Shown here: in pieces, positions 34,050 to 54,694 of the stretch
How the letters are laid out: the number at the start of each line of letters is the position of its first letter
Position numbering within the stretch: the first letter of the stretch is position 1
Translations under genes and position numbers: made by a program
The notes under the pieces: model-generated
Databases searched by the model: none
What the model saw: the letters and a program-made list of their open reading frames with translations, nothing else
What the model was told of the DNA's origin: nothing
Origin: Trichodelitschia bisporula
Taxonomy: Eukaryota; Ascomycota; Dothideomycetes; Phaeotrichales; Phaeotrichaceae
NCBI GenBank assembly: GCA_010356995.1
Contig: ML996710.1
Location: 30,455-94,454 of the forward strand
Reading direction: 5' to 3'
Length of the DNA stretch: 64,000 nucleotides

Positions 34050-35420
34050 TATGATACCACAAACGTAGAAGTTGGACTGTTGAATAGAAATTGGCTTTGA
34101 TACTGGTATTTAGGACTGATAGTTGATGGTAGCGGGGTTGAAGGGTGAGATGGAGAAAAGGAGGTGAAAGTCTACCTAGGAGCAATTCTTACCCCCAGTG
34201 CGGTAGCCATGCCTTCTGTTTGCCCAAAGATATGGCCATCTTACACCTCTTCGGACGGAAACCACCTGCACCGGCAATATCTCGCTCTCACCATCGTGCT
34301 CGCAGACGTTGTCAAGAGTTCAATCGTCTACTTTCAAGAGGCCCCAAACGGGACTAGTATCTTTTCGTGGTGTCTGCTGTAGGGGCATCATTTCGACTAT
34401 TACCAGCCGTAAGCAGCTAGATGTTAGTAGTAGGCCGTCTAGAGTATGTATCTGAGATGAATGGGACAACGGGATCAAATATGCTTAAGCCTGGCGTCCC
34501 TAGATGCCGCTGGCTCGCGGGATGCATCCGACTACTAGCAGCTTCGCTCTTTACCGCAAAGCTCATGCGCGCACTGATCTTGTACTGAGGTCCGGGCCCT
34601 ACTACTTCTCCTATGCATGGCCGAGAAAGGGGGTCCTTAGACCAGTGAATACATACCGGCTAGGTATTGGGAGAGAATGTGGAAAGCAACGTCACAAGCA
34701 GTGAGTGTAAGCAAAAACTAAGTTTAAAGACGAACCTCCGAAGAGGGCCGCGGTGTAGGCTAGTCTAAGTACACTTGGTACCCTCATCACCTTCCCGGGC
34801 TTCGAGGGCTACTACCTTAGCGATAGAGTAAACAACCCAAGGGCCATTACCTCTTATGTGCGGTATGCCTGCTTTATGCCCTCTAGTTACTACTACCATT
34901 ACAGATGTGCCTGCCCTTATACGATGTCTCCTGCCCCACACCAGGAGGAGGGGCTTTCTGATGGAAGTAAAGCTCTCACATGTGGAGCGGCAACTGTATA
35001 AACTAAAGACTGAAATAGAAGACAGAGAGGGTCAGGGAGTCAGAGACTATCGAGACTTAAATGCACATTGCCAAGTATCCTCCAGGGCAGGGAAAGTCTG
35101 CTATTCTCAGCGACGCTGACTGTCGATGACTTCATTCCAGCTGATGTCGACCGCCATCTGTGATGACACCTCTTAGATTTCGGCAGGTTAAGCATTATCT
35201 GGTGACGTCCCTAACAGCCTACAGCAGCACAGAATAGACCACCCTAGCTTCTCAGGCTCGAAATAATCAGTTGTCGTAGCTCGAGTATGAACCCCCGCAT
35301 GATCATATCCCGCTTCTCCGCTTCATGCACATCCGCCTCCTAGTTCTAGAGATCCAAAGCTTTGACAATGCTTCCCTTGCTCCCCACGTCATTATCTCCC
35401 CGCCGCCCGCCCGCTCTCCT
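34050..35420. other. Intergenic region, no supported gene
   Basis: 1.4 kb with only short frames. At 34990-35090 a polypurine stretch followed by CCAAGTATCCTCC resembles sequence at 29560-29660. No domain or RNA gene was seen. Confidence 0.5.
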
Positions 35421-37016: not shown

Positions 37017-38229
37017 CTTCGTCGAACCACCCACAGCCAGTGCACCGCTCGGCCGCGCTGGTGCAAGGCACGAGGCACGCAGGCAACGATAACGCGTTAA
37101 TCCCGCAGGCACGAGTCGCTGCACCGCCGCAACGAAAGCAGCAGGTCGGCGCGCGCATCAAACGTGCGTGCGGACGGAAGACTGCTCATGGCTAGACCGG
37201 GATTCTCCCGCCCCAAAGCTTGTTCAGACCCCACGCGGGATCCATGAGCGGGTCATGTCTCGGCCTGCCTGGGGGGGAAGGTGGTGGCCGCCTGCCGCAT
37301 CGGGCCGGGTCTGGGCGCCGCCCGTTGGAGCGATTCTGGATGCGGGAAGAAGCCCACTAGGCGGAAGAGGCTATCGCGGGACGAGGATCATGGAGGATGA
37401 GTGGTGGCGTATTTTTGTGATTCGTGGAATAGTCGCACACGACTCGTTGCGCTGTGATAGATGAGCCTGTGAAGGCCCTTCTCGTTCGCTTTGCGACTGC
37501 GCTTGTACGCTTGCACTCTTCTTGTTGTTCGCTTCGGGTGGGAAACGTAGATCACCCGCCGCCGCACATGCGGGCCGGGAGCTGTGCGGTGCGACCCGAG
37601 ACAAGGTCATCGTTGTGCGCGGGCCACATGAGGGAGAATCGCCACGGGCAATAGTCTGCTTCGGTTAGGTTGCCTTTGGGCAGCAATGGACCGGCGCGTT
37701 GGTTGCGGGTTTATCAAGGCACGATGTCATAAAGACTATTGAGTCGTGTTGTTGCCTTCTCTTTTGATGTCACAGGCGCGACTCGTTGTGATAACGTTGA
37801 TATGAATACTTAAGATATCGGGTATCGTCGGTCGGGGACTTGGTCCGGACCGAAAACAAGCATAGCCAAGTATGGTTTATCCAGAGCGCGCTTTTAAGAG
37901 TCCAGTTTTGTCCCTTTGATACGTCTAGCACCTGCGAGCCTTGCCGTGGGTGGAATGAATGGAGAGGAAGAAATGGAGACTGTGCGTAACTTCCTCACGT
38001 GCTGGTGAATTAGTCGGCGCCCGCTCGGTTGCAGTACGACTTCGAATGGGTGACGGTCTGCCTCGCGCGGCGCATGGTCTTGACTTGGCTCTGGTTCCTT
38101 CTGGGCAAATTCGGCGGCAATGTCCAGCTTAAGTTGCACAACTTGTACTGGAGCTGCTTCGTCAGCTTTCGTCCGCCGTTCGTCCTGTGTTCTTGTTCGG
38201 CAGTCTTACGAGGGCCATCCCCTTCGTCC
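37017..38229. other. Intergenic region, no supported gene
   Basis: 1.2 kb. Frames are short and show no domain. The part at 38000-38229 is open on the minus strand directly downstream of the broken coiled-coil paralogue and may be its former 3' end. Confidence 0.5.
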
Positions 38230-38935
38230 CTAGTTCTCTTGCGGCTCTGCCTTGATCTCATGGTTCTCTTGCGGCTCTGTCTTGATGTTATGGTTCTCTT
38301 GCGGCTCTGCCTTCGTTTCGTGGTTCTTTTGCGGCTCTGCCTTCATCTCGTGGGCCCGAACCAGGTTTGCCTCTGGGCCCGACATTGCACCGCGTGGGCA
38401 GTCTGTGGCCGTCCTCTTCAGAGCTTCAGCTCTGTTCATTTCGTCCGTCCCTTCAGCCATCTCTTTCGCCCAGAAACCGTCTCTGCTGCGCGCTTAGCAC
38501 CGCTCTTTTCACAATGGGGATCAGATATTCGATTGCCTCATACTGATCATCCACCACAGTACTCAGGCGGCTCAAGGCGACGTCCCCGACAGATGCTTTT
38601 GCTTTCCCCACTTTCAGAATCTGCTCCACCAGCTTTTCGGCGATACGAAGATAGCGTAAGGCTGGTTTGAGGAGGGTATAAACGGTGCGCAGCTACGGGG
38701 GTGTGCGAGGACCGGGGCCGTCTGAGTTTGTAGTGGAAGTGATGAAATACTGGGTACAGAGCTTGAGTAAGGTGCGGTATACGGCCACCAGATTCCTTCC
38801 CAGTTTCGATATGGAGGCGCGCCTTTTTCAAACAGAGTTCTCGATGCGGTGGAGAGTTTTGTCTGCTGATTCTAGGGATCTCTCCGCGGATTCCAGGGAC
38901 CCGGCAGCAATATCGAGAGTAATGGTGTCAGACAT
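38230..38935 (-). pseudogene. Broken paralogue of the coiled-coil gene at 40000-40686
   Basis: Reading from the ATG at 38933-38935, MSDTITLDIAAGSLESAERSL...LHRIENSV stops at a TGA (38828-38830) where the intact paralogue has GGA. The same frame then goes on (KRRASISKLGRNLVAVYRTLLKL) to a TAG at 38693-38695, then LRTVYTLLKPALRYLRIAEKLVEQI...STVVDDQYEAIEYLIPIVKRAV. Near 38460 the match shifts frame to EMAEGTDEMNRAEALKR and ends in four EPQ(E/K)NH-type decapeptide repeats. Alignment to the protein at 40000-40686 is clear throughout. Two stops and one frameshift make a functional product unlikely. It is about 1 kb downstream of the intact copy in the same direction, so tandem duplication is the likely origin. 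Confidence 0.8.
38231..38350. repeat. 30 bp tandem repeat, four units
   Basis: Four consecutive 30 bp units of the type TGGTTCTCTTGCGGCTCTGC plus 10 bp. On the minus strand they encode a decapeptide H-(E/N)-x-K-(A/T)-E-P-Q-(E/K)-N. They lie at the 3' end of the broken paralogue and are absent from the intact copy. Confidence 0.9.
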
Positions 38936-39999
38936 GGTGAGAGCGTGTGGGCGTAAGAGAGCGACGATGGTGAGAGTGAGATGATGGCGAGAGTGAGAAG
39001 ATAGTGAGAAGGAGCAGACGATGACGAAAGTGAGAAGATGGTGAGAGGGAGCAGATGGTGCGAGTGGGAGAATAGCTGGTGACGGTACTACTGTGATCAA
39101 TCGACGCCATATCAACGCCTCCACCGCACATGACAAACAAGGGAGCAGGCATCCGCCCCGCCTTGCCAAGATCTTTGGTGACTAAGCCGATGGTTGCTCT
39201 GATGCCGCACTCTTTGATAGCATGAGAACAAGCGATTGAATATTGCTGAGATTTAAATTGAGGATGAAAGACGCGGGTTCTAAATCTGTCTAGCCGGTCG
39301 GATTTTGGATATCTCATTGTGTTGAGTTTCTATGGAAGTACAGCCTTGAGAAGCGTCCGGCTTTTGTCCCATCGCGACCAAGCCACTCAGAAACTCCTGG
39401 CCACCATATGAGGGTGTCAGTGCGGAGGGAAACGGCCACGACTTTCTTAGTAGCCCTTATGTTTGAAGTGGCGACGGAGACAACGATTTAGGTGTTGACC
39501 ACTTCAAAATGTTAAAATGTGCACCTCGTCGACATGATTCTAATGCTATACGGTATCTGTTATCTCACTATACACACGCTGCATGAGTGCATCGTGTTTT
39601 CAACCTCGAATCTGACATTTGATGGGTGCGGGTAAGTCTTGGCGCCGAGCTTACCGTGCTTTTCCTTAGCGTAGCCTTACAGCCTTCATGCCTTTACGGC
39701 CTTCACGGCTGTGCAGGGGTGCGGAGGCCGCCCCTGGTGAGGGCAGGCAGACGCGGGGACGGGTGGAACGGTGAGGTCATTATCTATTCGATGTGATAAG
39801 GTACAATGTGGAAGAACAAAGAACAGGAGCTCCGAATCCAAGCCCAAGTCCAAGTCCAAGTCCAAGTCCAAGTCCAAGTCCAAGCCCAAATCCAAATCCA
39901 ACGCCAACGCCAACTAGACCAAGATCCGTGTCCAGCTTCAGCTCCAGGCACACAAAAGCTAATAGAAACGCCCGTCCTGCTTACACGCTCCTAATGGAA
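38936..39999. other. Intergenic region with purine and hexamer repeats
   Basis: The first 130 bp upstream of the broken paralogue is a degenerate GTGAGAGTGAGAAGATG tract that also occurs, shorter, upstream of the intact paralogue (40687-40745). A (CCAAGT)n hexamer tract lies at 39841-39913. No gene is supported. Confidence 0.6.
39841..39913. repeat. (CCAAGT)n hexamer repeat
   Basis: About ten hexamer units, becoming CCAAAT and CCAACG at the right end. Translations are low-complexity (PSPSPS or QVQVQV), so frames through it are not genes. Confidence 0.9.
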
Positions 40000-40686
40000 T
40001 TAGTGTCGTGCTGACCTTGGTCCAGCACCGCGGCTGCGGCTGCGACCGCCCCGGTACTGCCTTTCGTACCCGACCGATCCGCTGCTGCGACTACCGCTGC
40101 TCAGGTACCGGTTGTCCCTCTCTTTCTCCAGTTCTTCAGCCATCTCTATTGCTTTGACTCTCTTCATTGCCTCGGCCCTCTTCATTGCCTCAGCCCTCTC
40201 CCTTGCTTCAGCCCTCTTCATTTCGTCCGCCTCTTCGGCCATCTCAATTGTTTTAGAAACCGTCCCCTGCGCGCGTTGCACCGCCATTCTCACATGGGGA
40301 ATCAGGTATTCGATCGTGTTGTACTGACCATCTACCACCATGTTTAAGCTGCTTAGGGCGAAGTTGCCCGCATATACCTTCGCATACTCGACGTTTTGGA
40401 TCTGCTTCACCAGCTCTTCCGCGGTATGAAGATGATGCATGCCTGGTTCGAGGTGGGCATGAAGGGCGTACTGCCATGGAAGTATGCGACAACCTCGTCC
40501 ATTTACGTTTGTGGCGGAAGTGGTGCCGTCGTACGGGGTATAGAGCTTGTACAAGGTGCGGTATACGGCATTGAGATTTTCGTGCAATTTCGAAAGAGAA
40601 GCGCGCCTTTTTCCAATTTCGGTCTCGATGAGGAGGAGAGCATTGTCCGCGGATCTGAGGGAATCGGCAACAGTGTTGAGAGACAT
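40000..40686 (-). CDS. Coiled-coil protein with RG/RS-rich tail (228 aa), array-edge paralogue
   Basis: A single-exon protein starting MSLNTVADSLRSADNALLLIETEIG. The N-terminal 150 residues are a series of amphipathic helices (KRRASLSKLHENLNAVYRTLYKLY; HLHTAEELVKQIQN; NMVVDGQYNTIEYLIPHVRMAVQRAQ). A strongly charged coiled coil with RAEAMK hexapeptide repeats follows (about 160-195), then a Ser/Gly/Arg tail (SSGSRSSGSVGYERQYRGG, RSRSRGAGPRSARH) of the kind found in RNA-binding proteins. No named family is recognised. A broken copy lies at 38230-38935. It is the leftmost intact member of a run of short helical genes that continues to 52.4 kb; whether it belongs to the same superfamily as the DFxxDF proteins is uncertain. 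There is no signal peptide, so the product is probably intracellular. Confidence 0.7.
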   Translation of the reverse strand: MSLNTVADSLRSADNALLLIETEIGKRRASLSKLHENLNAVYRTLYKLYTPYDGTTSATNVNGRGCRILPWQYALHAHLEPGMHHLHTAEELVKQIQNVEYAKVYAGNFALSSLNMVVDGQYNTIEYLIPHVRMAVQRAQGTVSKTIEMAEEADEMKRAEARERAEAMKRAEAMKRVKAIEMAEELEKERDNRYLSSGSRSSGSVGYERQYRGGRSRSRGAGPRSARH

Positions 40687-42000: not shown

Positions 42001-42390
42001 CTAAAAAGAAACTTCATTGATATCATCAGCAGCCAGTTCGAGCCGGTGCAGCGTGTCGCAAAGAGCGGTCAGCGCATCGCGCACCTTCAACAACCCGTCC
42101 ATTTCGAAACCGCGCCCATTGCGGCATACGCCCAACATGGTACGTCGGAGGTCTTCGCAGCGCGTGATCGCGCTCTTCATCACTGCTATTGCCTCGACAC
42201 TGTGCTTCTGCACGCCCGTCTCTTGGATATGCGCCGTATACTGCATCAGGACCTCGGCCAGTGTCGTCGAGATCTCATCGACGGAGATTTTGAGCGATTG
42301 GAGGTTTTCCGCGGCCTTGGTGTCCCAGTCGCAGAGACCGTAGAACTCGCGGTAGACATCGGAGAGGATTTCGTAGATTTGGCTGAGCAT
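42001..42390 (-). CDS. Short helical array protein M6 (129 aa)
   Basis: Starts MLSQIYEILSDVYREFYGLCDWDTK, chosen because the neighbouring paralogue at 43794 has the equivalent MLSQ start and because the upstream in-frame 35 codons are unlike any copy. The protein is all-helical in appearance: TKAAENLQSLKISVDEISTTLAEVL, HSVEAIAVMKSAITRCEDLRRTMLGV, and a last helix ALTALCDTLHRLELAADD equivalent to the FxDAIxRLxE helix of other members. It is single-exon with no signal peptide or membrane segment. Function is unknown. It is the most diverged minus-strand copy and lacks the second half of the DFxxDF motif. Confidence 0.6.
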   Translation of the reverse strand: MLSQIYEILSDVYREFYGLCDWDTKAAENLQSLKISVDEISTTLAEVLMQYTAHIQETGVQKHSVEAIAVMKSAITRCEDLRRTMLGVCRNGRGFEMDGLLKVRDALTALCDTLHRLELAADDINEVSF

Positions 42391-43049
42391 TTGGGACGAT
42401 ATGGAGAGAGACCAGAGCGGGTGGGTCGTTGAGACGGGGAGATGGACTGCTATTGAAGCTCTTGTGGACCCCTTGGACCTTACCACAGCCCCCACAAGAA
42501 GGTGGGTGTGGCGGAGCTTGGGTTAAGAGAAACACGATTGAAAGTTTAAATAGTCCACGCAAGGCACTTTCTTATCGTGGAGCGATGGGTCTGCGACGAT
42601 GATCCGACCACAACCAGCGATATATGAATGCTCAAAATTGGTCTGCGAGCACAACCAAATGTGGAACCAGCTTCTAACAATTTTATCAACTTTCTTTGCG
42701 TTGCTGGGAGCTGAGATTCTTTCCAGAGTTCATGGCGTGTATCATCCTTTCTTTCCATTGAGTGATGGCCTTGCATGCGCGACGTCGGGGACCCCGCGTG
42801 GGGGGGAAGTCATGACTGCTTCCCCTGCCGATTTGCCCCAGGTGTGCGGCTATCACTTTTTACGCAGCAAGTGGACGTGACGCATCCTTCAACGAGTGGA
42901 ATATCTCAAGGACGGAGCATAAATCGAAATAAATGGCCATACATAATCCCTTCATCGCTCATACTCGCAGACATCCCTTTCTTGTCCTTCCCAATCCTGA
43001 CAAGCTCCTCCAGATCCAGCTTGAGTAGCTCAATGCACCCCGGAAACGG
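42391..43049. other. Intergenic region within the paralogue array
   Basis: 660 bp. Contains the upstream sequence of M6, with a GGGGGTGTGG-type tract. No further copy of the family could be recognised in either direction. Confidence 0.45.
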
Positions 43050-43316
43050 TTAAAGGGTTCTGAGGTCGAGAGCATGCTCGAGATACCGAAGCCTGCGGAT
43101 AATTTTTTGAAGCGGTTCGATTATGGCATGCTTCAACTTCTCTGTGCCTGCTGCGTCCGGTCGTTCCATGAAATCACTGTAGAAGTCCTGGCAAAGCATG
43201 TGAAGTTCCGCAGCCCTTTCGGGGTGTCCCCATTCGGCCTTATCAAAACAGTCCTCAATGAGGGCTTCATTCTCGTCGAGAAATGTCGCAACGATTTTTC
43301 TCATCTCGGATGACAT
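43050..43316 (-). CDS. Short helical array protein M5 (88 aa)
   Basis: MSSEMRKIVATFLDENEALIEDCFDK, then ERAAELHMLCQDFYSDFMERPDAAGTEKLKHAI and a last helix LQKIIRRLRYLEHALDLRTL. The centre carries the array motif DFYxDF followed by a short Asn/Pro-type loop and a helix, as in the other copies. It is shorter than its neighbours because the C-terminal helix is missing. It is single-exon with no targeting signal. The small size and the shared motif are the only evidence for a real gene; function is unknown. Confidence 0.6.
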   Translation of the reverse strand: MSSEMRKIVATFLDENEALIEDCFDKAEWGHPERAAELHMLCQDFYSDFMERPDAAGTEKLKHAIIEPLQKIIRRLRYLEHALDLRTL

Positions 43317-43793
43317 TTTGGATTATGCTGATGTTGACGGGGAGTGAAAGAAAGGTTGAAGTCGGACTGAAATACACAATGCATCGAAGCAACCGGCATC
43401 AAAAGCGGGGTCAATCATGTCTAGACGGGGGCGGCGTGTTGAATTTGTGGCGGCAACCTGGGGTGGCTGGAGTGGAGCCAGGAGACAGGGGTCGTCTCCC
43501 GGCGATGTATATAGTCAGCTCACTTCCTACTGCTAGTCGGCAAAGCAATTCAGTCAAGTTCACACTTCATTTTAACACGGCGTCAGTAGGAAACTAAGCG
43601 CAGCAGCAAACTCACAAACGCATAGGCGGCAAGATGAAGCGTACCTCCTTCCCAGCATAATTCCTACCACTCATGCCTCATTTTGAGGCCGCCTTTCTCT
43701 AGCCTTCTCAACTTCTACTACTAGCTCATTCCACGCATCCCAAAGCCTAAAAGCAGACTCGCGCGGATACGGGACGTTCGGACCGCCTACAAC
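43317..43793. other. Intergenic region containing a dispersed repeat
   Basis: 477 bp between M5 and M4. It holds the 141 bp repeat at 43438-43578, which has an inverted copy at 54048-54189. Nothing else distinctive. Confidence 0.6.
43438..43578 (+). repeat. 141 bp dispersed repeat, copy 1
   Basis: Runs from GTTGAATTTGTGGCGGCAAC to CTTCATTTTAACAC and matches the reverse complement of 54048-54189 at about 85% by eye. It contains CCAGGAGACAGGGGTCGTCT, a TATATAG word and AGCTCACTTCC. Matching stops sharply at both ends. No terminal inverted repeat or target-site duplication was seen. A solo piece of a small mobile element or a transposed promoter fragment is possible. Confidence 0.85.
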
Positions 43794-44093
43794 TCAGTGA
43801 TCGAGGATGTTGTACACAGCTTGTAAAAGCAGCTGACACTGTTCCGCCGCTATCTTGACCAACATGAGCATCTCGGTGCTTTGCTTTCCTCTCTGGATTG
43901 CTTCCGGTTGGGTGTTCTTGTTCAAATCTTCGTAGAAATCGACGGGGATTGTGCGTAGTTTCTCGTATAGATCGAGGTGCCTTTGTACCAAGAGACTTTC
44001 ATCCAGTTCCTCTCTGGCCTTGATGGACTCGGCCCTGATTTTGCAGATTTCGTCCAGGATATTAGCAAACTGGCTCAGCATTTCTGGTGTCAT
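43794..44093 (-). CDS. Short helical array protein M4 (99 aa)
   Basis: Starts MTPEMLSQFANILDEICKIRAESIKAREELDESL. The core reads LYEKLRTIPVDFYEDLNKNTQPEAIQRGKQSTEMLMLVKIAAEQC, then LLLQAVYNILDH. The DFYEDLNKN...AI(Q/D)RGKQ(S/R)(T/S)EM block is almost the same as in M2 and M3, which fixes it as a paralogue. The ATG at 44091-44093 was chosen because the copies share a start just before this helix. Single-exon, no targeting signal, function unknown. Confidence 0.7.
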   Translation of the reverse strand: MTPEMLSQFANILDEICKIRAESIKAREELDESLLVQRHLDLYEKLRTIPVDFYEDLNKNTQPEAIQRGKQSTEMLMLVKIAAEQCQLLLQAVYNILDH

Positions 44094-44303
44094 GTCGGAG
44101 GAGGGTGCCGAAAGATGACGTACTGTGTAGTGAGGGTGGTTGCGGGCGAAGCTTCTTGACCGAGGAAGGCCCAAGGGGCCGCTCGCTAATGTGGCATCGC
44201 TAATGTCACAGCACAGTCACACCGTTACCGCCATCCGGTCACTCATACATTGATCCTCACATTATTGCTGTCTCCACATGTCTGCCAACTGACACCCACC
44301 GGC

Positions 44304-44705
44304 TTACAGCACCTTTTGAAGCCGCGTCTTTTTATCCTTTTCAACATCCTCCTCTAGCCTAAATATCGCATCCCAAAACGCGCGAGCAGTTCTCGCTCTG
44401 AGTAGATCCGTCGCACAGTCTGTTTCGAGCCCCTTTTTGAGAACGTCGGAGAAGCACACGCTCCGCTCGATTATAGCCTCGAGCAACGTGAGCATCTCGG
44501 ACCTGTGATTTCTTCTATCGATCCCCTCCGATTGGTCGTTCTTTCGAAAGTCTTCGAAGAAATCGGTGAAAATTGTGTGCAGTTCATCGAGCAGTTCTCG
44601 GCCTTTATCCGCGGAGAGTGGTGTCGAGCCGTCATATACCCTTTCATCCCATTCGGTTATGATGGTCCGGGCTTCGAGAAGGACTTCTGTGAGCTGATCG
44701 AACAT
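44304..44705 (-). CDS. Short helical array protein M3 (133 aa)
   Basis: MFDQLTEVLLEARTIITEWDERVYDG, then LLDELHTIFTDFFEDFRKNDQSEGIDRRNHRSEMLTLLEAIIERSVCFSDVLKK and a C-terminal helix TARAFWDAIFRLEEDVEKDKKTRL. It is a full-length member: three to four helices, with the DFFEDFRKN motif at about residues 51-59. It resembles M2 along its whole length (the C-terminal FWDAIFRLEE matches LWDAIQRLDE) and P9 on the other strand (FFNAIEQLAE). Single-exon and cytosolic in appearance. No function can be assigned. Confidence 0.72.
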   Translation of the reverse strand: MFDQLTEVLLEARTIITEWDERVYDGSTPLSADKGRELLDELHTIFTDFFEDFRKNDQSEGIDRRNHRSEMLTLLEAIIERSVCFSDVLKKGLETDCATDLLRARTARAFWDAIFRLEEDVEKDKKTRLQKVL

Positions 44706-45027
44706 TTGCGATGATATGTCGAGAGGAGTGCCGAATGAAGCGTATTGAGGATAGCTGTCGGCGCGACTTCATACGTACTGCGCAAAGGCAGCTTCTTGAT
44801 GCGGGATCGTTCAGTTACGGCACAAGCCCCGCGTTATCATCCCGTGACATCCGGCTAGTGTCGCCGCGAGCGCGGCCGACATCTACCGCACAGAACTGAT
44901 GTGGTTGCGAGTCCGCGATGATACCGAGTTACGTGATGCGAGCCAGCATTGCGGAGATAGATCTGGGAGACTCTTTTCTTCAACAACAATTCAGTCATTC
45001 ATGCCTTTCCCAAAACACTGCTATGTA
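44706..45027. other. Array spacer between M3 and M2
   Basis: 322 bp upstream of M3. Contains a CGTGACATCCGGCTA-type stretch that also occurs upstream of M2 (about 45557-45580) and a related form upstream of M4, so flanks were duplicated along with the genes. Confidence 0.5.
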
Positions 45028-45444
45028 TCACCATATCCCCCAACAGGAACCGGATTCCACTTCCTTTTGAGATCCCCCTTTTCTGTCCTTTGCAACTTCA
45101 TCCAGCCTCTGTATCGCATCCCAAAGTCGGTGGTGAGTCCTCCTTATCATCCCCGAGAACGCACAGTCTACAGTTCCCTCCGGCTCCTTTTTGAGGACTT
45201 CGTTCATGTCCCGGCACCGTGCGACCACAACGTTGATTGACGCAATGATCTCGGACCTCTGCTTTCCCCTGTCAATTGCATCCGGTGGGTTGTCGTTGAA
45301 GTCTTCTAGGAAATCGGTGAGGACTGTCTGTAGTTCATCGACTATTATGTAGATATCGCTCAAAACGAGCTGTATCCGTGCTGCCCTCCATTTAGTCGTG
45401 ATGTAGGTGGCTTCGCGGAGGACGTCGTCAAGCAGGTCGGACAT
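45028..45444 (-). CDS. Short helical array protein M2 (138 aa)
   Basis: MSDLLDDVLREATYITTKWRAARIQLVLSDIYIIVDELQTVLTDFLEDFNDNPPDAIDRGKQRSEIIASINVVVARCRDMNEVLKKEPEG, then HHRLWDAIQRLDEVAKDRKGG. It carries the array motif DFLEDFNDNPP and the RGKQRSE block shared with M4. The ATG at 45442-45444 aligns with the start of M3; the frame is open upstream to 45558 but that part has no match in other copies. Single-exon, with no signal or membrane segment. Function unknown. Confidence 0.72.
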   Translation of the reverse strand: MSDLLDDVLREATYITTKWRAARIQLVLSDIYIIVDELQTVLTDFLEDFNDNPPDAIDRGKQRSEIIASINVVVARCRDMNEVLKKEPEGTVDCAFSGMIRRTHHRLWDAIQRLDEVAKDRKGGSQKEVESGSCWGIW

Positions 45445-45759
45445 TTCTGGCGATTTGTGGAAGGCGATTGCCGAGAGGAAGGGTTTTGAAGATGGCTGTC
45501 GGTGAGGCGGCTTGATATGGCGTCGTTGGGGCACAGCACAGCCTACCGTTATCGTCACCTGACATCCGGCTAACGTCGCTGTAGGCGGTGATGCCGAACA
45601 GTAGAACTAAACAGAGAAGGCAACTATGCTGGTAGGTAGTCCAAGATGGAAAGTCAGTTGCGGCTCATAACCTTATTTTGTTCCATAAAAAACCCATTGC
45701 ATGAAAGACTCATCATCAACCTAATATAGGTTCTTTGCGCCGGACTCCATCACCGGAAG
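45445..45759. other. Array spacer between M2 and M1
   Basis: 315 bp. Includes the CCTGACATCCGGCTAA segment shared with the M3 upstream flank. No separate gene is supported. Confidence 0.5.
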
Positions 45760-46239
45760 CTAATGCCGATCCCGTCTCGAAGACTTTACCGCCCTCTCGC
45801 CTTCCCGTTTGAACTCTGCACGCTTGGTATCGTGTACAGCTATGTAAAACTGGATGAAATACACGGTTTCGGGGCTGCTATACTCTACCCACGCCTTCTT
45901 CTTCTCCTTAACCGGAGCACACTGGGACGCTTTTGCCTTCTTAAGCTCATCCCAGTATAGCTTACCCCAGACTGTTAGTTCCCTAAGGTAACTAGAAAGC
46001 CGTCCCCACGCTGCGCGGTCGTGAGTCAGCTTCGGCGGGTTCTTGCGAAAGTCGTGGTTGAAGTCCGAGACGTTACTTGTTCGTTCACGCAGTAACGCCT
46101 CTTTCCTGCCGTCTACGGCGTCCTCGTCGACGCAGGAGTTGATTTCACTGGAATGGGCTATGTAGTCTTTGATGAACGCGTCGATGCTGTTCATTGTTGC
46201 TTGCACCGATGGGTTGGGCGTGGAGTTGTCGGGTGGCAT
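45760..46239 (-). CDS. Short helical array protein M1 (159 aa)
   Basis: MPPDNSTPNPSVQATMNSIDAFIKDYIAHSSEINSC, then LLRERTSNVSDFNHDFRKNPPKLTHDRAAWGRLSSYLRELTVWGKLYWDEL, and a basic C-terminus (KREGERAVKSSRRDRH). It has the array motif as DFNHDFRKNPP. The start at 46239 gives a Pro/Asn-rich leader; the internal Met16 matches the start of the paralogues better, so the real start may be there (144 aa). It marks the right end of the minus-strand half; the next copy lies on the plus strand after a 683 bp divergent gap. Confidence 0.62.
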   Translation of the reverse strand: MPPDNSTPNPSVQATMNSIDAFIKDYIAHSSEINSCVDEDAVDGRKEALLRERTSNVSDFNHDFRKNPPKLTHDRAAWGRLSSYLRELTVWGKLYWDELKKAKASQCAPVKEKKKAWVEYSSPETVYFIQFYIAVHDTKRAEFKREGERAVKSSRRDRH

Positions 46240-46922
46240 GGTGCCCGCAGGTGGCGCGAGATCGCGGGAAATCGACGATATCGAAGGGAGCTTGCTTTAG
46301 GGTAAGGCTGTCGAGGGCGGGGCTCTGGAAAAGAAGTCAGTCTGGAGATATTGTCGCGCGACAGACTGTCGTCGGAGGTGATGTTGAAGACGAGGTCATC
46401 GCCGCACAGCTCAGAACTCAGCGTGTGCGGCGGGACCCTGGGCAGCCTAGAGAAGTTGTAGCCGTCCTGGCTAGGAGTCTTTGTGGAAGGGTCGGTAGCG
46501 ATATTTTTCAGGTTGGCCTTGCCCAAAAGGCTGCCCGACTCGTGAGGGGTAACAATGACATCAGTTCAATCGTCCGCGTCTCGCGATGCTTGCTGGCATA
46601 GCTACATGCTCCGCCTTCCCCTGCCGATAGGCGCAGAAAAATGCGGTTGAGCATCTGAGGCCCCCGAACTATTCGTGGCCGCCCTTCCCCAAGGCTACAG
46701 TCCGAGTACGGAGTACTGTACCACGCAGCTGAGGCCGGGAGGCAGCCACGAGTGTTTCGGGCCGTCCCTTGACTCGCGGACGGGCTTGATGCCTTGCTTG
46801 CTTTAGTTTCTCATGCTCCGAACCGCGTGCGATTTTTGACCGGCCGGTCCGATCAGTGCCTCCCCTGCTTCTACTGCGTACCACTTCTTCATTTCGCTGC
46901 TTCGTCGCTTCGACCAGCCGCC
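46240..46922. other. Divergent gap at the strand switch of the array
   Basis: 683 bp between M1 (minus) and P1 (plus). It is GC-richer than the array itself and has only short frames. It marks where the orientation of the paralogues inverts, so an inversion breakpoint may lie here. No repeat was recognised across it. Confidence 0.5.
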
Positions 46923-47285
46923 ATGCCATCACCGGAGGCCTTGGAAGCGCCCCAGCTACAGAAAATGAATCTCAAAGACATACACTTTCTGGTACTTGAA
47001 CTGTGCGGAGACGATAGGCAAAATGCTAATACCGCGAAGAGTGAAGTCTTCGGCAATGTCTTAGACTTCTGCGACGGTATACTTGCTGAGGGGGATGCCG
47101 CGGTTACCTATAAAATGCTAAGGGAGTTGGCTTTAGAGTCTTTGGGGGACCTCGCCGGTCTGCGCGAAAACACCGAGCAGATCATCTCGGGAATCACCCG
47201 TTTAAATATAGGCATGGACCTGAAGATATGTATTGCGCGTAACCGGTTCGATGAGTGGATCAACAACAACTTGAGGCCAACTTAG
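46923..47285 (+). CDS. Short helical array protein P1 (120 aa)
   Basis: MPSPEALEAPQLQKMNLKDIHFLVLELCGDDRQNANTAKSEVFGNVLDFCDGILAEGDAAVTYKMLRELALESLGDLAGLRENTEQIISG..., ending KICIARNRFDEWINNNLRPT. It is one of the few undamaged members of the plus-strand half and defines its layout: an LKDIxFxVLxxCGDDRxNANTAK segment, a (D/N)xxDFCDD motif, a Y-K-LRE helix, a REx(I/T)xxIIS helix and a KxCxxR...F-x-(E/D)-W/F-xxNNL end. Single-exon, no targeting signal. The TAG is followed by GAAGCCTACTC, a motif that follows most other copies. Confidence 0.75.
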   Translation: MPSPEALEAPQLQKMNLKDIHFLVLELCGDDRQNANTAKSEVFGNVLDFCDGILAEGDAAVTYKMLRELALESLGDLAGLRENTEQIISGITRLNIGMDLKICIARNRFDEWINNNLRPT

Positions 47286-47517
47286 GAAGCCTACTCAACT
47301 GTTATATCGCATGATCCGTGCTGTGATCTTGCAAGTCCATCTGCGATAACGACTCAAGCAACAGCCAAAGGCTACAGGGAAAACCGTACTACTGGTGATA
47401 CCCCGCTCTCTTTAATCGGCTTCCTAACGCGCCTTTTGAGCAGCTAGCCCGATCTTTGCCTCCGTCTTTGCACAGCCGCTGCATCACTTCGTCACTTCGC
47501 CACTTTTGCCTATCAAG

Positions 47518-47853
47518 ATGCCGTCGTCGGAAGCAAACCAGCAACTCCAGACGCTTTTCAAGGATTTCGAGTTCCTGGTATTGGATGCACGAGAGGACGT
47601 TGCCAACAGCGCTGACATTGTAAAGGATGAACTCTGCATCAACATTTCAGACGCCTTCGACGATGTCAATGTTGAGGGGGTTTCAGCGCTTTTACGAGAT
47701 GTTACTCTTCTCCGCGACGAGATCCAGAAGATCATTTCGTTTGCACGTTTAAAGCATATCAGGGAGACAAAGCTATGTTTTTCGAAGGAGATGATGAGGG
47801 ACATTCATAAAAATGTACTCGAGCTTAATAAGAAGTTATCGACATTAGCATGA
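47518..47853 (+). CDS. Short helical array protein P2 (111 aa)
   Basis: MPSSEANQQLQTLFKDFEFLVLDAREDVANSADIVKDELCINISDAFDDVNVEGVSALLRDVTLLRDEIQKIISFARLKHIRETKLCFSKEMMRDIHKNVLELNKKLSTLA. It is an intact frame with the family layout of P1. The stop is a TGA, and the ancestral TTAGGAAGCCT motif lies about 10 bp beyond it, so the C-terminus is slightly shorter than in other copies. The ATG follows the conserved leader TTTTGCCTATCAAG (CTTCTGCCTATCGAC in others). Function unknown. Confidence 0.72.
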   Translation: MPSSEANQQLQTLFKDFEFLVLDAREDVANSADIVKDELCINISDAFDDVNVEGVSALLRDVTLLRDEIQKIISFARLKHIRETKLCFSKEMMRDIHKNVLELNKKLSTLA

Positions 47854-48074
47854 GGCAGTTTAGGAAGCCTATTCCGTTGTTATGTCGTCGTGATCCTTTG
47901 CCGTGTCCTTCAAGTCCATCTAAAACAGAGGCTCAAGCAACGGCTAAGGGCTACCCGAAAGGCTTGTCAGTGCCCCGCTCATTTTAATGCGGGGCATCTC
48001 GACGCCTTTTGAGCGGCTAGTTCTAACCCAATCTACACCCCGTTTCCACCGCTTCGTCGCTTCTGCCTATCGAC

Positions 48075-48457
48075 ATGCCATCGCATACTTCGGAAACTCT
48101 CCAGCAACTTCAAACACTTCTTAAAGATATCGAGTTTCAGGTACTAGATATGTGCGGAGAAGATAGGGAAAAGCTTACACTGCGAAGGATGAGCTGTTCA
48201 GAAACGCCGTCGATCTCTACGACGACCTTACTGGGGATATGAGGTCGGATGAAGCGCTGATTTATGCGAAGCTTAGAGGGGCAGTTTTGATGCACCTAAG
48301 GGAGAACGTCTGTCAACGGGAGTACATCCAGGAGCTTATTTCGAGCTTTCATAACGCGGACGTCAAGTTATGTTTTTCGCGAGAGGGGATGGTGAGATAT
48401 CATACTGAGATGCTCGAATTCAACGAGTTTATGGAGAACAATCTGGGGCCAACTTAG
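48075..48457 (+). pseudogene. Array copy P3, frameshifted
   Basis: From the ATG at 48075, MPSHTSETLQQLQTLLKDIEFQVLDMCGEDREK is in the family frame. Then one base is missing (GAAAAGCTTAC where P1 keeps an extra base) and the frame runs into a stop at about 48240. The family frame resumes as TAKDELFRNAVDLYDDLTGDMRSDEALIYAKLRGAVLMHLREN... to ...FNEFMENNLGPT and the usual TAG. Only one frameshift separates it from an intact gene, so it is young or the base call should be checked. An internal ATG at 48239 could still express the C-terminal 72 residues. Confidence 0.78.
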
Positions 48458-48656
48458 GAATCCTACTTACTGTTACCACACAATATCGCCATGACCTGGC
48501 CCTGTGGTGCATATGCATCTGAAATAGCCGCTCAAACGACGGCCAAGGGCCACCGGGGAAAGGCTTATTAGAGCAATACCCTGCACCTTTTGATCGACCA
48601 GCCCAGTTCTCGTCTGATCCCCTGTTCCTACGTCCTCATCACTTCTTCCCATCGGC

Positions 48657-49048
48657 TTGCCATCTCCCGGCACCTCGGAAACGCTGCAGCGACTTGAAGC
48701 GATTTTAAAGGACATCGACCTTCAGGTACCAGATTTGGAAGGAGATGACTGAGAAAAGCTAGTACCGCGAAGGAAGAACTGTGCGCCAATATTATAGATT
48801 TCTGCGACGACACAAAGGATTTTAAAAGGGATGAGGCAGCTGCTTATGAGAAGCTACGGGAAGGAATCTTAACGAAGCTAAAAAGCGTCGCCGTCATACG
48901 TGAGGGCATCCAGGAGTTCATCTCGGACGCTCGTTCCGGTGATGCTGGGGACGTGAAGCCATGTGTTTCGCAAGATACAGTGATGGGATTTCACAAAGCT
49001 GTGGTCGAGCTTCAGGAGTTCGTCGATAATGATATGAGGCTAAGTTAG
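48657..49048 (+). pseudogene. Array copy P4, start lost, stop and frameshift
   Basis: The position that is ATG in other copies is TTG (48657-48659) in an otherwise conserved context (CGGCTTGCCATC). The frame reads PSPGTSETLQRLEAILKDIDLQVPDLEGDD, then TGA, then a one-base deletion at the same GAAAAGCTA site as P3. The family frame continues as TAKEELCANIIDFCDDTKDFKRDEAAAYEKLREGILTKLKSVAVIREGIQEFISD to ...FVDNDMRLS and TAG, followed by GAAGCCTACATGCTGTT. Three separate lesions mean it is not functional. Confidence 0.8.
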
Positions 49049-49242
49049 GAAGCCTACATGCTGTTATCATGCAGTATATCGTCATAACATTGCTATGTGG
49101 TGCATATGTATCTGAAATAGCGCCTAAATAATGGCTATTGGCCACCGTGAAAGGCTTATTAATACCCTACGCCGTTTGCTCGACTAGCTCAGCCTTCAAT
49201 ATACATCCCGTTTCCACCTCCTCGTCGCTTCTGCATCTCGAC

Positions 49243-49628
49243 ATGTCATCGACCAGTGTTTCAGAATCGCACCAGCGACTTTAAGCGGTTCTGAAGGACA
49301 TAAAGCTCCAGGTACCAGACATGTGCGGAGACTATAGGGAAAGCGCTAACGCCGCGAAAGGATGAACTATGCGCCAACGCCTTGGAATTTCTTGGACGAC
49401 ATTAAGGGAGATATTAATAGGGATAACGTAGTTGCTTACGAGGGGCATAAGAGAAAAGTTTTAGCGAAGCTAAAAGATTTCGCCCTCATCCGCGAGGCCA
49501 TTTTGGAGATGATCTCGAGTGATGGCGGGGACAGGAAGCTATGCCTTTCGCAGGACGAAGCAATGAAGTTTCACAATCTGGTAGTTGGGCTCAAGGAGTG
49601 GGTCGATAATGAAATGATATCAGCTTAG
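49243..49628 (+). pseudogene. Array copy P5, stop and frameshifts
   Basis: The ATG at 49243 is kept. MSSTSVSESHQRL is followed by TAA where other copies have CAA or GAA, then AVLKDIKLQVPDMCGDYRESANAAK. Small insertions near 49357-49390 shift the frame twice. The rest is open from 49362 (MNYAPTPWNFLDDIKGDINRDNVVAYEGHKRKVLAKLKDF...) to ...LKEWVDNEMISA with TAG and the GAAGCCTACTCGCTGTT motif. The C-terminal two-thirds is well preserved, which suggests recent decay. Confidence 0.8.
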
Positions 49629-49810
49629 GAAGCCTACTCGCTGTTGTCGTTATGATTTTGCCCGGTCGTAGATGTGCATCTGATGAAGCGCTTTCAACGG
49701 CTAAGGGTTACTGGGAAAGGCTTATTAATGCCCTACGGCGCTTAATCGACGAGCTTAGCCTTCCTCTTACACATCCCACTTCCACCTCCTCGTCGCTTCT
49801 GCCTATCGAC

Positions 49811-50218
49811 ATGCCATCGACCGGTACTTTAGAAACGATCCGGCAAATCCAAGCGGCTGTGAAGGACATAGACGTTCAGGTACCAGATACGAGTATATGC
49901 GGAGACGACGGGAAAAAGCTAACACCGAAAAGGATGAACAATGCGCTATTATCTTGGACTTCTTCGACGATACTTTCGGGGATAGCAAGGGGAATGATAC
50001 AGTTACTTATCAGAAACTAAGAGTTTTTTTTTTTTTCAGAGTACCGAAGAGAGGTCGTCGACGTTCGTAATCAGTTCCTGGGTACTATCTCGCTCTACGC
50101 CGATTTGAGGGATCGCGTGTACGAGGACTCGAAGATATGTTTTTCGCAAGGTACAGCGAGGAAATTTCGCAGTTGTGTGAGCATTTTCAGTGCATTCATC
50201 GATATTCTAATAAAATGA
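49811..50218 (+). pseudogene. Array copy P6, frameshifted with T-run
   Basis: ATG at 49811: MPSTGTLETIRQIQAAVKDIDVQVPDTSICGDDGKK. Deletions at the GGGAAAAAGCTAACACCG site shift the frame. The family frame resumes as EKDEQCAIILDFFDDTFGDSKGNDTVTYQKLR, then meets a T12 run (near 50024-50036) before REVVDVRNQFLGTISLYADLRDRVYEDSKICFSQGTARKF and a TGA. The T-run is also a likely sequencing trouble spot, but the earlier shift alone breaks the gene. Confidence 0.75.
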
Positions 50219-50511
50219 GGCTAGCTTGGGAAGCCTAGTCGCTGTCATCGTTATGACTATTGCCCGTCGTGCGTGTGCATCTGATGAAGCGTTTAAGCAA
50301 CGATATGGCTATGGGCTGGGCGAAAAGATTATACGCCCCTCATTAAAATGTTGTAGCCTGGTTTCACTCGGATTTATACTAAAAAAAGCAGAGACTATGT
50401 GGGGCTGCGGCCATCACCTTTAGGCCCCACTTGCTTTAAGGCCGGGTACTCCCGCAACTTTAATCGGTTAGCCCCTCCGTTTCTGCTACTTCCTCACTTC
50501 AGCACATCACG

Positions 50512-50905
50512 ATGGCATCGTCCGATACCTGGGCGGAAACTCAGCAACATGTCCGCACGATACTTGAAGACATAGACCTTTTAGTACTAGACGCGTACTC
50601 AAATGATCGAGAAAACGCTAACACGACGAAGGTAGAACTCCTAAGCAATATGTCAGACTGCTGCGACGATGCTTTGAATGTGGGAGATTTCAACCAGAAG
50701 CATAGGGATGAAGTCGCAGTGGTGTGTACCGGAGATGGAGATGATGCGTCAGAGTATCCGGATGACCGCCTTGGGTATAGTCCGGGAAGGTGCAGGCAAG
50801 GACGAGAAGACGCATGTTTCCAAGTTTTTCGTGAGCGAGATGAAGAAGTTTCACGACAAAGTTTATGAGTTAAACGACAGTATGAGGAATCCGAAACCTT
50901 CTTAG
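50512..50905 (+). pseudogene. Array copy P7, single frameshift
   Basis: MASSDTWAETQQHVRTILEDIDLLVLDAYSNDRENANTTKVELLSNMSDCCDDALNVGDFNQKHRDEV is in frame. About 50715-50730 the reading shifts by one, after which the family C-terminus is read as EMEMMRQSIRMTALGIVREGAGKDEKTHVSKFFVSEMKKFHDKVYELNDSMRNPKPS with the usual TAG GAAGGCC. The first frame on its own gives a 118-residue protein with a foreign C-terminus, so a truncated product is possible. One lesion only, so it is the least damaged of the broken copies together with P3. Confidence 0.75.
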
Positions 50906-51212
50906 GAAGGCCATTTCATGAGGTCTTCTAGAGGAAGGATATTTCGCTGTTGTGACCGCGCACCAGTCGTTCCGCCTAACCTCCCTGTACGAGTACTCCT
51001 ATCGGGGCGTTCCCAGCCTTAGCCTAAGACGTCTTGTATGTCGATCTGAGATGGCGCTTAAGTAACGGCGAAGGGCCGTCTAGAAGGCTTATATCTATGC
51101 TTCGCTCCCTCTAATTAGGTACTCCCGCGACTTCATCGGCCAGCCTAGCCCCAGCCCGCATCTCTAATCACGTCTCCGCCGCCCCGCCGCTTCGCGACTT
51201 CCCCCCAACAAC
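50906..51212. other. Array spacer between P7 and P8
   Basis: 307 bp. The end contains the conserved pre-ATG leader in altered form (CCGCTTCGCGACTTCC). Also repeats the GATCTGAGATGGCGCTTAAG-type segment found upstream of other copies (for example CATCTGAAATAGC near 48510 and 49110). Confidence 0.6.
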
Positions 51213-51695
51213 ACGCCAGAGTCCGTCCTCACGCCCGAAACGCTCCAAAACCTTCAAGCCGCCCTCAAAGACCTCGAAACCCTAGTAAACCCCCCCTTAC
51301 GAGGTATCCAGCGAACGAGGGGCAAACCGCTAACCCCGCAAAAGAACGAACTCTGCGCCAACATCGCCGACTGGTGCGAGGACGTCAAGGGAGCCCCAAA
51401 CATCAATGAGCCCGCACGGGAGAATGTATTAGCGATTCTGAAGGCCGGCGCTACACTGCTTCAGAGTGCTACGGAGAGGACGGCGGAGATAATCCGGGAG
51501 AAGGGTAGCGCGAAGGTGAAGGTTTGTTTCCGGCGAGAGACGTTGGAGGAGTTGGATGCTGCCGTGAGGATGCTTACTGAAGTTACGGAGACGTCGATGA
51601 AACGACGATTTTGGGGAGGAATGTTGAGCTGTTCTGCTTTTAGCATCTGCATGTGCATTGGTCGCTTCATTTATTCGTCATGGTCGCCGTCCTAA
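51213..51695 (+). pseudogene. Array copy P8, start codon lost (ATG to ACG), extended C-terminus
   Basis: The frame is open for 160 codons from ACG at 51213, the position of ATG in the other copies: PESVLTPETLQNLQAALKDLETLVNPPLRGIQR..., KNELCANIADWCEDVKGAPNINEPARENVLAILKAGATLL, KVKVCFRRETLEELDAAVRMLTEV. There are no internal lesions. The C-terminus is about 35 residues longer than its relatives and hydrophobic (MLSCSAFSICMCIGRFIYSSW), perhaps a membrane segment. No alternative ATG lies close upstream in frame; the first internal Met is far downstream. Initiation at ACG is possible in fungi, so it could still be translated; otherwise it is a start-loss pseudogene. Confidence 0.65.
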
Positions 51696-52009
51696 GCATC
51701 TTTACTTTTGCGGCGTCTTGCATCTACCTAATAGCCTTCACGGAGTGGCTGGAGGCTACCAAGCAAATGTGATGACCCAGCCCCCGATAGTCGCTGCCTG
51801 AATCCCCGGCGAAAGCATAGGAAAACCCGACTACGACTTTTGGCCTCGAAGTAATAATTTTTAGGGCTATAAGATGAGGCTCATGAATACCCCGCACGCC
51901 GCGCTCTCTCCAAATACCGCGCACTGCCCCAACTTCTCATCGGCCAGCCTGATACCCACCTGCATCTCCCATGTCGCCCTTCCACCGCCTAGACGTCCCA
52001 CCTGTCGAA
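51696..52009. other. Array spacer between P8 and P9
   Basis: 314 bp. The segment just before P9 keeps the leader pattern (CACCTGCATCTCCCATG... CACCGCC), but the conserved CTTCTGCCTATCGAC is replaced. No gene. Confidence 0.5.
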
Positions 52010-52399
52010 ATGTCATCATCCGGTATCCCGGCCGAAACCCTCCTACAACTCCGCGAGCTTGTCAAGGACGTGGACTCAATATTCGGTTATGATGATGCTG
52101 ATGGGGAGGCCATCCTCGCACTACTGGATGAAGCACGATGCAATATCTTAGACTTCTACAATGATTTCAAGCGGAATTCCACGGTTACCAATGACAAAAT
52201 GAGGGGGGAGATACTTGGGCTTCTCAGAGCCGCCTGTCGAGAGTTGGACATCATTGAGCGTGCCATGTTGAATGAAGAGGCATGGGCTTTCTGCATGGGG
52301 GCCAAGGTACTTGAGGAGAAGGAAAAAGCGCGCCAGGGATTTTTCAACGCTATTGAGCAGCTCGCCGAGATGAGCGGGTATAAATTGGTGAACCTTTAG
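52010..52399 (+). CDS. Short helical array protein P9 (129 aa), bridge between both halves
   Basis: MSSSGIPAETLLQLRELVKDVDSIFGYDDADGEAILALLDEARCNILDFYNDFKRNSTVTNDKMRGEILGLLRAACRELDIIERAMLNEEAW..., then ARQGFFNAIEQLAEMSGYKLVNL. The N-terminus matches the plus-strand copies (ETLxxLxxxLKDI). The middle and end match the minus-strand copies M2/M3: DFYNDFKRN, RGEILGLLRAACREL, FFNAIEQLAE. It therefore links the two halves into one family. The ATG at 52010 aligns with the start of P1-P7; a further in-frame ATG at 51971 would add 13 residues. The frame is intact and single-exon, with no targeting signal. Confidence 0.75.
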   Translation: MSSSGIPAETLLQLRELVKDVDSIFGYDDADGEAILALLDEARCNILDFYNDFKRNSTVTNDKMRGEILGLLRAACRELDIIERAMLNEEAWAFCMGAKVLEEKEKARQGFFNAIEQLAEMSGYKLVNL

Positions 52400-53740: not shown

Positions 53741-54694
53741 GATGGATACTGTGGGGGAGTGGATGATGGGGGAGGGGTTATATGCCCGCCTGCCCGCTCG
53801 CTCGGGTACGGTTCTCCGGGGGGTGGGGCTTATCTAGGGTGGATGGTGCGATGCGTGCTGGGCGGGGTGGGTTAGGGTTAGGGTTGGGACGAGGGTGAGG
53901 ATGGGGCTGAGGGTGTGGGCTGAGTGGAGACGGCATGGCGAGGGCGGAGGGGCATTTGGAAAGTCGTGGTGCCGACTGGGATAGTCTTTGCTGCTTGGGA
54001 GGGGAGGGTGTTGGGGGAAAGTGGCCATGACCTTTTGGAGGGGGGAAGTGTTAAAATGAAGTGTGAACATGATAGAGTTGCTTAATTGACCAGCAGTGGG
54101 AAGTGAGCTGGCTATATATCTCGCCAGGAGACGACCCCTGTATCCTGGCTCCACTGCAGCCACCCCCAGGTTGCCGCCACAAATTCAACAGGAAGCGACT
54201 TGGAGGAAGGCCCAGTGGCTGCCCCAGAGGTTATGTCGCCTCCCCACCGGCTCTTGCTGGTACACAGAGACTACCGGCGAGGGGGACTTATCTTTCGGAT
54301 AGCCCGCGGCTTTTGGATGTGTCGGGTAACCCCGCCCCAAAGTCGCTACTTCGTACTCAGCGCACGCCGTACCCAGACACGGCTCCAACTTTCCAGAGTG
54401 GTGCAGCGACCTTTTTAATGCCCTTAGACGCGAGGGAGCGCCGTTCTGCACTCCGCGATACCTGCCATCGTTCCCATCTCCAAAGGCTCAGTCGTCAGAC
54501 CATGCCCGCAGGATTTACCCGAGCAAAAGTAAGCCCGTTTTAACGCGCAATCCCGCCGCAACGCGCGAACAAAGACGCTGCGTACGAGGCGCATTCAGCC
54601 GGAAAGCGGCATTCCGCCGACAAGGCGTGTTTGCATGAGTGGCGCACAGCTTGTTTTGAGGTCTACATACCGTAACAGGACGGCAGCCACGGAT
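53741..54694. other. Intergenic region with dispersed repeat and telomere-like words
   Basis: 950 bp. Contains GGGTTAGGGTTAGGGTTGGG at about 53868-53887 and copy 2 of the 141-142 bp repeat. No gene is supported; frames at 54103-54543 are the repeat read through. Confidence 0.55.
54048..54189 (-). repeat. 142 bp dispersed repeat, copy 2 (inverted)
   Basis: Reverse complement of 43438-43578, about 85% by eye, with the same ends (GTTGAATTTGTGGCGGCAAC ... TTCATTTTAACAC). Contains a TATATATC word in the same relative place. The flanks of the two copies are unrelated. Confidence 0.85.

Follow-up and report, generated by a model that had tools for sequence, protein, structure and literature searches.

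A family of small proteins, predicted to fold as soluble four-helix bundles, is represented in the 25.65 Mb genome assembly of Trichodelitschia bisporula by about 52 units, located at 16 places on 12 contigs, and codon models fitted to dispersed copies indicate diversifying selection; we infer that most of the sites under such selection lie in the regions of helices 1 and 4. Fifteen of the related units, six on the minus strand (M1 to M6) and nine on the plus strand (P1 to P9), form an array at positions 42001-52399 of the 64,000-nucleotide stretch analysed here (the window; 30455-94454 of contig C24, 334,532 bases), and the other 37 lie outside it. The proteins are read as soluble scaffolds whose binding face diversifies, probably in the service of an intracellular conflict; this reading is given about an even chance. 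With about 50 copies, a single fungus so far and a localised diversifying signal, the family offers an entry point to an unexplored molecular conflict.

Codon-level selection and predicted fold

Site models were fitted to 13 intact dispersed copies over 119 codons. Model M0 gave a ratio of nonsynonymous to synonymous substitution rates (omega) of 0.93 and a transition to transversion rate ratio (kappa) of 2.5. The step from M1a to M2a gave twice the log-likelihood difference (2dlnL) as 59.3, with an omega of 2.9 at 27% of sites; in nearly neutral simulations the maximum was 15.8, and the observed value was reached in 0/40. The 2dlnL was 54 to 71 in five other alignments, 67 with the ten closest rows, 90 on a star tree, 70 in gap-free columns, and 30 and 39 when each half was fitted on its own tree.

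By region, omega was 1.07 in helix 1 and its loop, 0.58 in helix 2, 1.02 in helix 3, 0.78 in the loop that follows and 2.61 in helix 4; tested against 1, the value for helix 4 gave a 2dlnL of 11.5 and that for helix 2 one of 8.75. A posterior above 0.9 was obtained at sites 4, 6, 10, 13, 17, 21, 22, 26, 28, 70, 77, 103, 104, 107, 108, 114, 115, 118 and 119, 17 of these 19 falling in the regions of helix 1 and helix 4. A periodicity of posterior omega at helix pitch was seen in helix 1 (p 0.003) and helix 4 (p 0.005), and not in helices 2 and 3. Conservation was concentrated in helix 2 and in the loop preceding helix 4. Besides the start, two residues were invariant in 13/13 copies: Glu 43 and Asp 50, which supplies the D of the DF core.

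For the DNA-level comparison, ten pairs of copies were aligned, and substitutions were counted over eight of them (the P9/C4 and U pairs being left out). In the three pairs with both copies intact, 8/8 genic insertions or deletions (indels) were multiples of three, as against 10/36 in the flanks; pairs with a broken or partial member had other indel lengths too. Substitutions amounted to 283/823, 241/821 and 268/820 at codon positions 1, 2 and 3 (0.34, 0.29 and 0.33), and to 1362/3019 (0.45) in the flanks. From these indel and codon-position counts it follows that the reading frame is guarded, while replacement changes are hardly restrained.

An AlphaFold2 model of M5, made from 13 rows, all from the window, comprised four helices at residues 2-25, 28-51, 60-85 and 94-124, with a mean predicted local distance difference test score (pLDDT) of 84.3 and a predicted template modelling score (pTM) of 0.75. 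The P1 model (nine rows) was likewise helical, with a pLDDT of 64 and a pTM of 0.38, and was too poor for use as evidence on the fold of the plus copies. The best structural matches of the M5 model were generic four-helix bundles (the designed protein 6egc, ABLE 6w6x, PsbQ 1nze and Borrelia Vsp1 1yjg), and matches of this kind say nothing on function. HeLo and the MLKL 4HB domain were not among the best 50 structural matches listed, and a family missing from that list is not thereby excluded. Across 28 sequences no transmembrane stretch was found (best 19-residue hydropathy 1.47), and 25/28 carried a net negative charge. Secreted or membrane proteins were rejected in view of the lack of a strongly hydrophobic stretch (hydropathy only; no signal-peptide program was run). 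As modelled, the family would thus comprise small (about 120 amino acids), soluble proteins, most of them acidic, each with a single four-helix-bundle domain.

Units of the array and their relationships

The units of the array are as follows.

M1, 42001-42390, minus strand: intact, 129 amino acids; matched by the outside-window profile at 1.5e-8
M2, 43050-43316, minus strand: short, 88 amino acids, without the C-terminal part; matched by the outside-window profile at 7e-4
M3, 43683-44093, minus strand: in-frame stop with a C-terminal remnant behind it; M4 and M5 align across the stop
M4, 44304-44705, minus strand: intact, 133 amino acids
M5, 45028-45444, minus strand: intact, 138 amino acids; predicted four-helix bundle
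M6, 45760-46239, minus strand: intact frame, 159 amino acids; membership doubtful, linked mainly to P9 (2e-4 to 3e-4)
P1, 46923-47285, plus strand: intact, 120 amino acids
P2, 47518-47853, plus strand: intact frame, 111 amino acids, an internal stretch missing
P3, 48075-48457, plus strand: frameshifted, in two pieces
P4, 48660-49048, plus strand: broken, without an ATG, with a stop and a frame change; C-terminal piece open
P5, 49244-49628, plus strand: broken by an early stop and a frame change
P6, 49811-50219, plus strand: broken into three pieces, a run of T present
P7, 50512-50905, plus strand: frameshifted; N-terminal half resembles P1
P8, 51222-51692, plus strand: open frame, no ATG ahead
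P9, 52010-52399, plus strand: intact, 129 amino acids; link between plus and minus copies

An uninterrupted frame with an ATG across the domain was present in 7/15 units (M1, M4, M5, M6, P1, P2 and P9), as judged by reading of the DNA and by frame changes in tblastn. The initial annotation had described an array of about fifteen paralogues, and the units are indeed present where it placed them and homologous beyond chance, M6 remaining doubtful; its picture of nine mostly intact plus-strand genes had to be given up, for these are mostly pseudogenes (P3-P7 frameshifted or stopped, P8 without an ATG), and M2 and M3 are cut short. The deposited hypothetical protein EJ06DRAFT_256536 of T. bisporula corresponds to M1 with a different tail, which is probably spliced. 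Repeat-induced point mutation was rejected as the cause of decay because the dinucleotide indices of the array (TA/AT 0.62 to 0.88, second index 1.06 to 1.20) were within the range seen in 2-kb bins across the window (0.45 to 1.01 and 0.98 to 1.37). One copy of an inverted pair of 143 bp, 88% identical (43437-43578 and 54048-54190), is situated just upstream of M2, and the pair had no match in Rfam.

When the units were searched by tblastn against the whole window, strong matches were obtained inside M3-M5 and inside P1-P8, those of M1, M2, M6 and P9 being weak. Strong links on the minus strand were M4-M5 (1e-18) and M3-M4 (2e-8 to 3e-8), and on the plus strand P1-P3 (9e-12), P1-P4 (2e-10) and P4-P5 (6e-19); weak and consistent links were M1-M5 (8e-4), M2-M4 (0.002), M6-P9 (2e-4 to 3e-4) and P9-M4 (3e-4). 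Over the full 64 kb, the pattern [DE]FxxD[FLDG], derived from the initial annotation, occurred in six open frames with a length of at least 60 codons, 6/6 of them inside the array, and the DFxxD segment could be aligned in both plus and minus copies.

Profiles were built without the rows under test, to limit circularity. Some outside rows had first been reached by window queries, and row ends were set by an iterated profile holding some plus copies, so that the tests are independent in sequence and not fully so in how the rows were collected. The profile of 29 outside-window rows matched M5 (2.7e-10), M1 (1.5e-8), M4 (3.8e-5), M2 (7e-4) and M3 (1.4e-3), the best of 4405 reversed frames reaching 0.49. 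P9 was matched at 3.7e-4 by the profile of 34 non-plus rows (best reversed frame 0.016) and at 3.1e-6 by the plus-only profile (best reversed frame 0.86), which also matched a broken copy on C4 at 1.7e-5. This dispersed P9 relative, at C4:166 kb, shares 71% DNA identity with P9 over 304 bp. The plus and minus halves therefore appear to be joined via P9, as had been proposed, and not directly, the plus copy P4 being reached by the non-plus profile at merely 0.1. Membership of M6 is doubtful on its sequence: it had an E-value of 6.1 in the iterated profile and was not among the matches listed in the leave-out tests. It is very unlikely that the array instead brings together helical families without common origin, two or three in number (a minus type, a plus type and M6), which adjoin and resemble one another only through the low information content of helices. 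Such a view would suit the failure of the non-plus profile to reach P1-P8 directly, the poor P1 model and the connection of M6 mainly through P9; it is opposed by the detection of P9 by both profiles well ahead of the best reversed frames, by the alignable DFxxD segment, and by the tree, in which P9 groups with three plus copies at 97/90.

In comparisons with Pfam, NCBIfam and PHROGs, no family was matched by more than 1/17 members, the best single matches being at 2.5e-4 (BORCS6, Pfam), 0.001 (NCBIfam) and 0.01 (PHROGs). BORCS6 was rejected for M1 (9e-4; 2.5e-4 in a second scan), as no other member matches and the score in the first scan was 19.7 against a cut-off of 35. Among PDB sequences none fell below an E-value of 0.028, and the best match was a designed protein. 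The earlier statements that the units carry no recognisable domain, and that they are a candidate for a new, fast-evolving fungal family, thus agree with the profile search, which placed them in no known family, with the clusters and single copies found genome-wide, with the diversifying signal in the dispersed copies and with the four-helix model of M5; a role in recognition had been put forward there as a guess. Searches of 5.77 billion proteins returned only T. bisporula, and the same searches miss known paralogues. Five members were returned by protein searches: M1, M4, M6 and two copies on C8 (EJ06DRAFT_529966 and EJ06DRAFT_411151). One search missed M4 though it is present in the database, and another missed the deposited M1 and one C8 copy, both of them rows of its own query. 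Relatives in other species may have escaped these searches, since small genes of this kind may be unannotated elsewhere. Similar small families may be easily overlooked in other fungi, given that protein databases yielded five members only. No description of the family, of a system of this species or of a similar module was found among the papers listed in the literature search; the family and its scaffold appear new, and their kind, that of expanding, decaying and diversifying conflict-type families, is already known.

Proposed role and alternative explanations

The pattern of change suggests one protein face under pressure to keep changing, as in recognisers of moving targets. Helices 1 and 4 lie side by side in an up-down bundle, and therefore the two variable faces would form one surface. 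The constant side, consisting of helix 2 with its invariant Glu and Asp and of the KR..T..E loop, would hold the fold or a common partner, and the variable side formed by helices 1 and 4 would bind a changing target inside the cell. Copies would be multiplied and tried one by one, those without use being dropped. Moving targets of this sort usually arise from conflict, for instance with other genotypes, selfish elements or mycoviruses, and the role would most likely lie in self/non-self recognition, in warding off mobile elements or mycoviruses, or in countering such a defence. In the more specific form of a repertoire of small intracellular recognition proteins, with one four-helix scaffold diversified on the helix 1/4 face and used for allorecognition, drive or anti-parasite defence, the proposal is tentative and rather unlikely. 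The sites named above make the idea of recognition directly testable.

A number of points count against this reading of a diversifying, conflict-related scaffold. The site models were fitted to the dispersed copies, the window's own copies not being included, by custom code in which branch lengths could vary in overall scale only, and the comparison made was that of M1a with M2a. The 61 core columns alone gave a 2dlnL of 6.5, which was exceeded by 4/40 full-length null simulations, and the permutation control, intended to detect misalignment, suffered from numerical instability and says little. Omega in the helix 1 block (1.07) is not different from 1, the case there resting on single sites; the helix borders in the 13 copies were transferred from the M5 model by alignment, and the helix-pitch periodicity could also reflect conservation on a buried side. 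Silent sites approach saturation. With the method of Nei and Gojobori (NG86) on protein-based alignments, the proportion of nonsynonymous differences (pN) was below that of synonymous differences (pS) in 44/45 pairs listed, and corrected ratios were 0.24 to 1.13, lower than the 0.93 of model M0; NG86 understates the ratio when transitions are frequent, and protein alignment biases it in the same, lower direction. With about half of its units broken, the family may in part be decaying. No recurring partner gene was seen beside copies in the 20 frames scanned (the places at C3:1060 kb, C6, C29 and C8:219 kb lying outside the scan).

An alternative is a decaying family, or a frame borne by a repeat, with little present function and an omega near 1 through relaxed selection. 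In its favour, broken copies make up about half of the units, the overall omega is 0.93, the three codon positions change nearly equally, and protein searches of limited reach recovered only five members. Relaxation is nevertheless judged unlikely: in intact pairs all indels (8/8) kept the frame, helix 2 is held below an omega of 1 (0.58; 2dlnL 8.75 against 1), Glu and Asp are invariant in 13/13 copies, the genes are less diverged than their flanks, and a class of sites with an omega of about 3 would be unexpected.

Multiplication and decay also call to mind a killer or meiotic-drive family working like the wtf genes of fission yeast, with biased inheritance, mutual diversification and decay once fixed. 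Proteins of the wtf genes possess transmembrane segments, unlike the present family, which is predicted as a soluble four-helix bundle without membrane segments, and drive of this type is considered distinctly improbable. It is recommended by the genome pattern, with tens of copies, dispersed or in tandem and so far found in one species, about half of them broken, and by their diversification; the wtf genes of Schizosaccharomyces similarly come in tens of tandem and dispersed copies, many broken, with rapid divergence (PMC9562144). According to the same paper (PMC9562144), most wtf genes outside S. pombe adjoin 5S ribosomal RNA genes. In T. bisporula, 2/47 5S genes (L049:4103-4221 and L050:5794-5912) were located less than 2 kb from a copy, at about 0.5 and 1.0 kb on the same strand, against 0.18 expected; this recalls the association of wtf genes with dispersed 5S genes (PMC9562144), but it concerns 2/16 places only (C3 and C13) and is a post hoc, weak test. 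A stand-alone death-domain family, resembling the HeLo, HELL and 4HB executioners of fungal NOD-like receptor (NLR) systems, is more remote still from these data and is held to be highly improbable. The four-helix bundle of the M5 model, the multiple copies and the filamentous ascomycete host would agree with it; PMC10197012 discusses HeLo, the MLKL 4HB domain and plant coiled-coil (CC) domains as related, and describes HeLo/HELL/Goodbye-like domains as small helical bundles of ascomycetes in a diversifying conflict setting. A membrane-prone N-terminal helix is a key element of HeLo-type domains in that paper (PMC10197012), whereas no membrane-like stretch was detected here by hydropathy, including in the first helix; nor was there any Pfam match to HeLo, HELL or Goodbye at E-values up to 1 (10 window proteins; 17 members), or any NLR gene among the 20 neighbouring frames scanned. 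The diversifying-scaffold reading does share positively selected residues with fungal NLR sensor domains and het genes, in which they are predicted on an exposed surface (PMC10197012). The variable part of NLR and het proteins is the repeat domain of a large receptor; the proposed scaffold would instead vary in two helices of a small bundle that stands on its own.

Dispersed copies and surroundings of the array

The genome was searched with M4, P1 and P9 and then with outside copies, fetched regions being searched also by profile. The unit counts (the window's 15 and 37 outside) were made by eye from overlapping match lists, and the underlying match counts are lower bounds. The outside units are distributed as follows.

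C8: nine at 804-813 kb; one, a relic, at 219 kb
C12: five at 89-93 kb
C3: two at 863 kb; one at 1060 kb
C4: one at 1323 kb; one at 166 kb
C18: one at 523 kb
C6: four at 1194-1196 kb
C11: three at 885-887 kb
C7: two at 99-100 kb; three at 180-182 kb
C13: two at 186-187 kb
C29: one at 14 kb
C2: one at 940 kb

According to the profile table, 17/37 outside units (one with an internal gap) had a start and were open across most of the domain; with the window included the count was 24/52. In a tree of 38 rows firm branches were few (5/35 starred), and copies grouped by place (15 place changes, against a minimum of 12 and 25.7 in shuffles). The window rows did not form one group in the best tree, and the starred branches are compatible with one group. 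From these sequences we read a probable course of tandem duplication and dispersal. The family shows birth-and-death turnover with dispersal, in tandem arrays and single copies of which about half are broken.

Of 20 large neighbouring frames scanned, 14 carried a Pfam family, beside 10/16 places, and the kinds were all different (for example an RRM protein, fructose bisphosphatase, Rad10, Rox3, Ssl1, a TPR protein and PHAF1). The sole family met twice near copies was polysaccharide deacetylase, beside a C7 cluster and 14 kb from the window array, which we take to be chance; the window gene (25422-27956, minus strand) has a chitin-binding domain and a long Ser/Ala-rich middle. Rfam gave one transfer RNA (tRNA) near each of two C7 clusters, and ARAGORN found no tRNA in the 15 loci given to it.

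Within the window, an orphan frame pair is located at 38208-40686 (minus strand), comprising an intact copy of 228 amino acids and a broken copy 51% identical to it; only these two were found in the genome, and the intact one matches no Pfam domain. An Argonaute gene (ArgoN, ArgoL1, ArgoL2 and Piwi) at 56887-59668 (plus strand) is divided between two open frames that overlap and that an intron probably joins. A dispersed repeat some 230 bp long was found in the window at 29511-29737, 34959-35083 and 1935-2016, and outside it at L053:788-994, L054:4612-4835, L057:3923-4152, L056:9220-9397 and L059:4783-4858, being upstream of copies at three single-copy places (L054, L057 and L059). It was rejected as part of the unit, as it was not seen beside the other copies examined. 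Near the C12 cluster, long tandem-like repeats, 66-81% identical, occupy L048:1273-4021, and just past the C8 cluster three consecutive C/D-box small nucleolar RNAs (snR75, Afu_513 and Afu_300) are encoded at L046:5987-6464.

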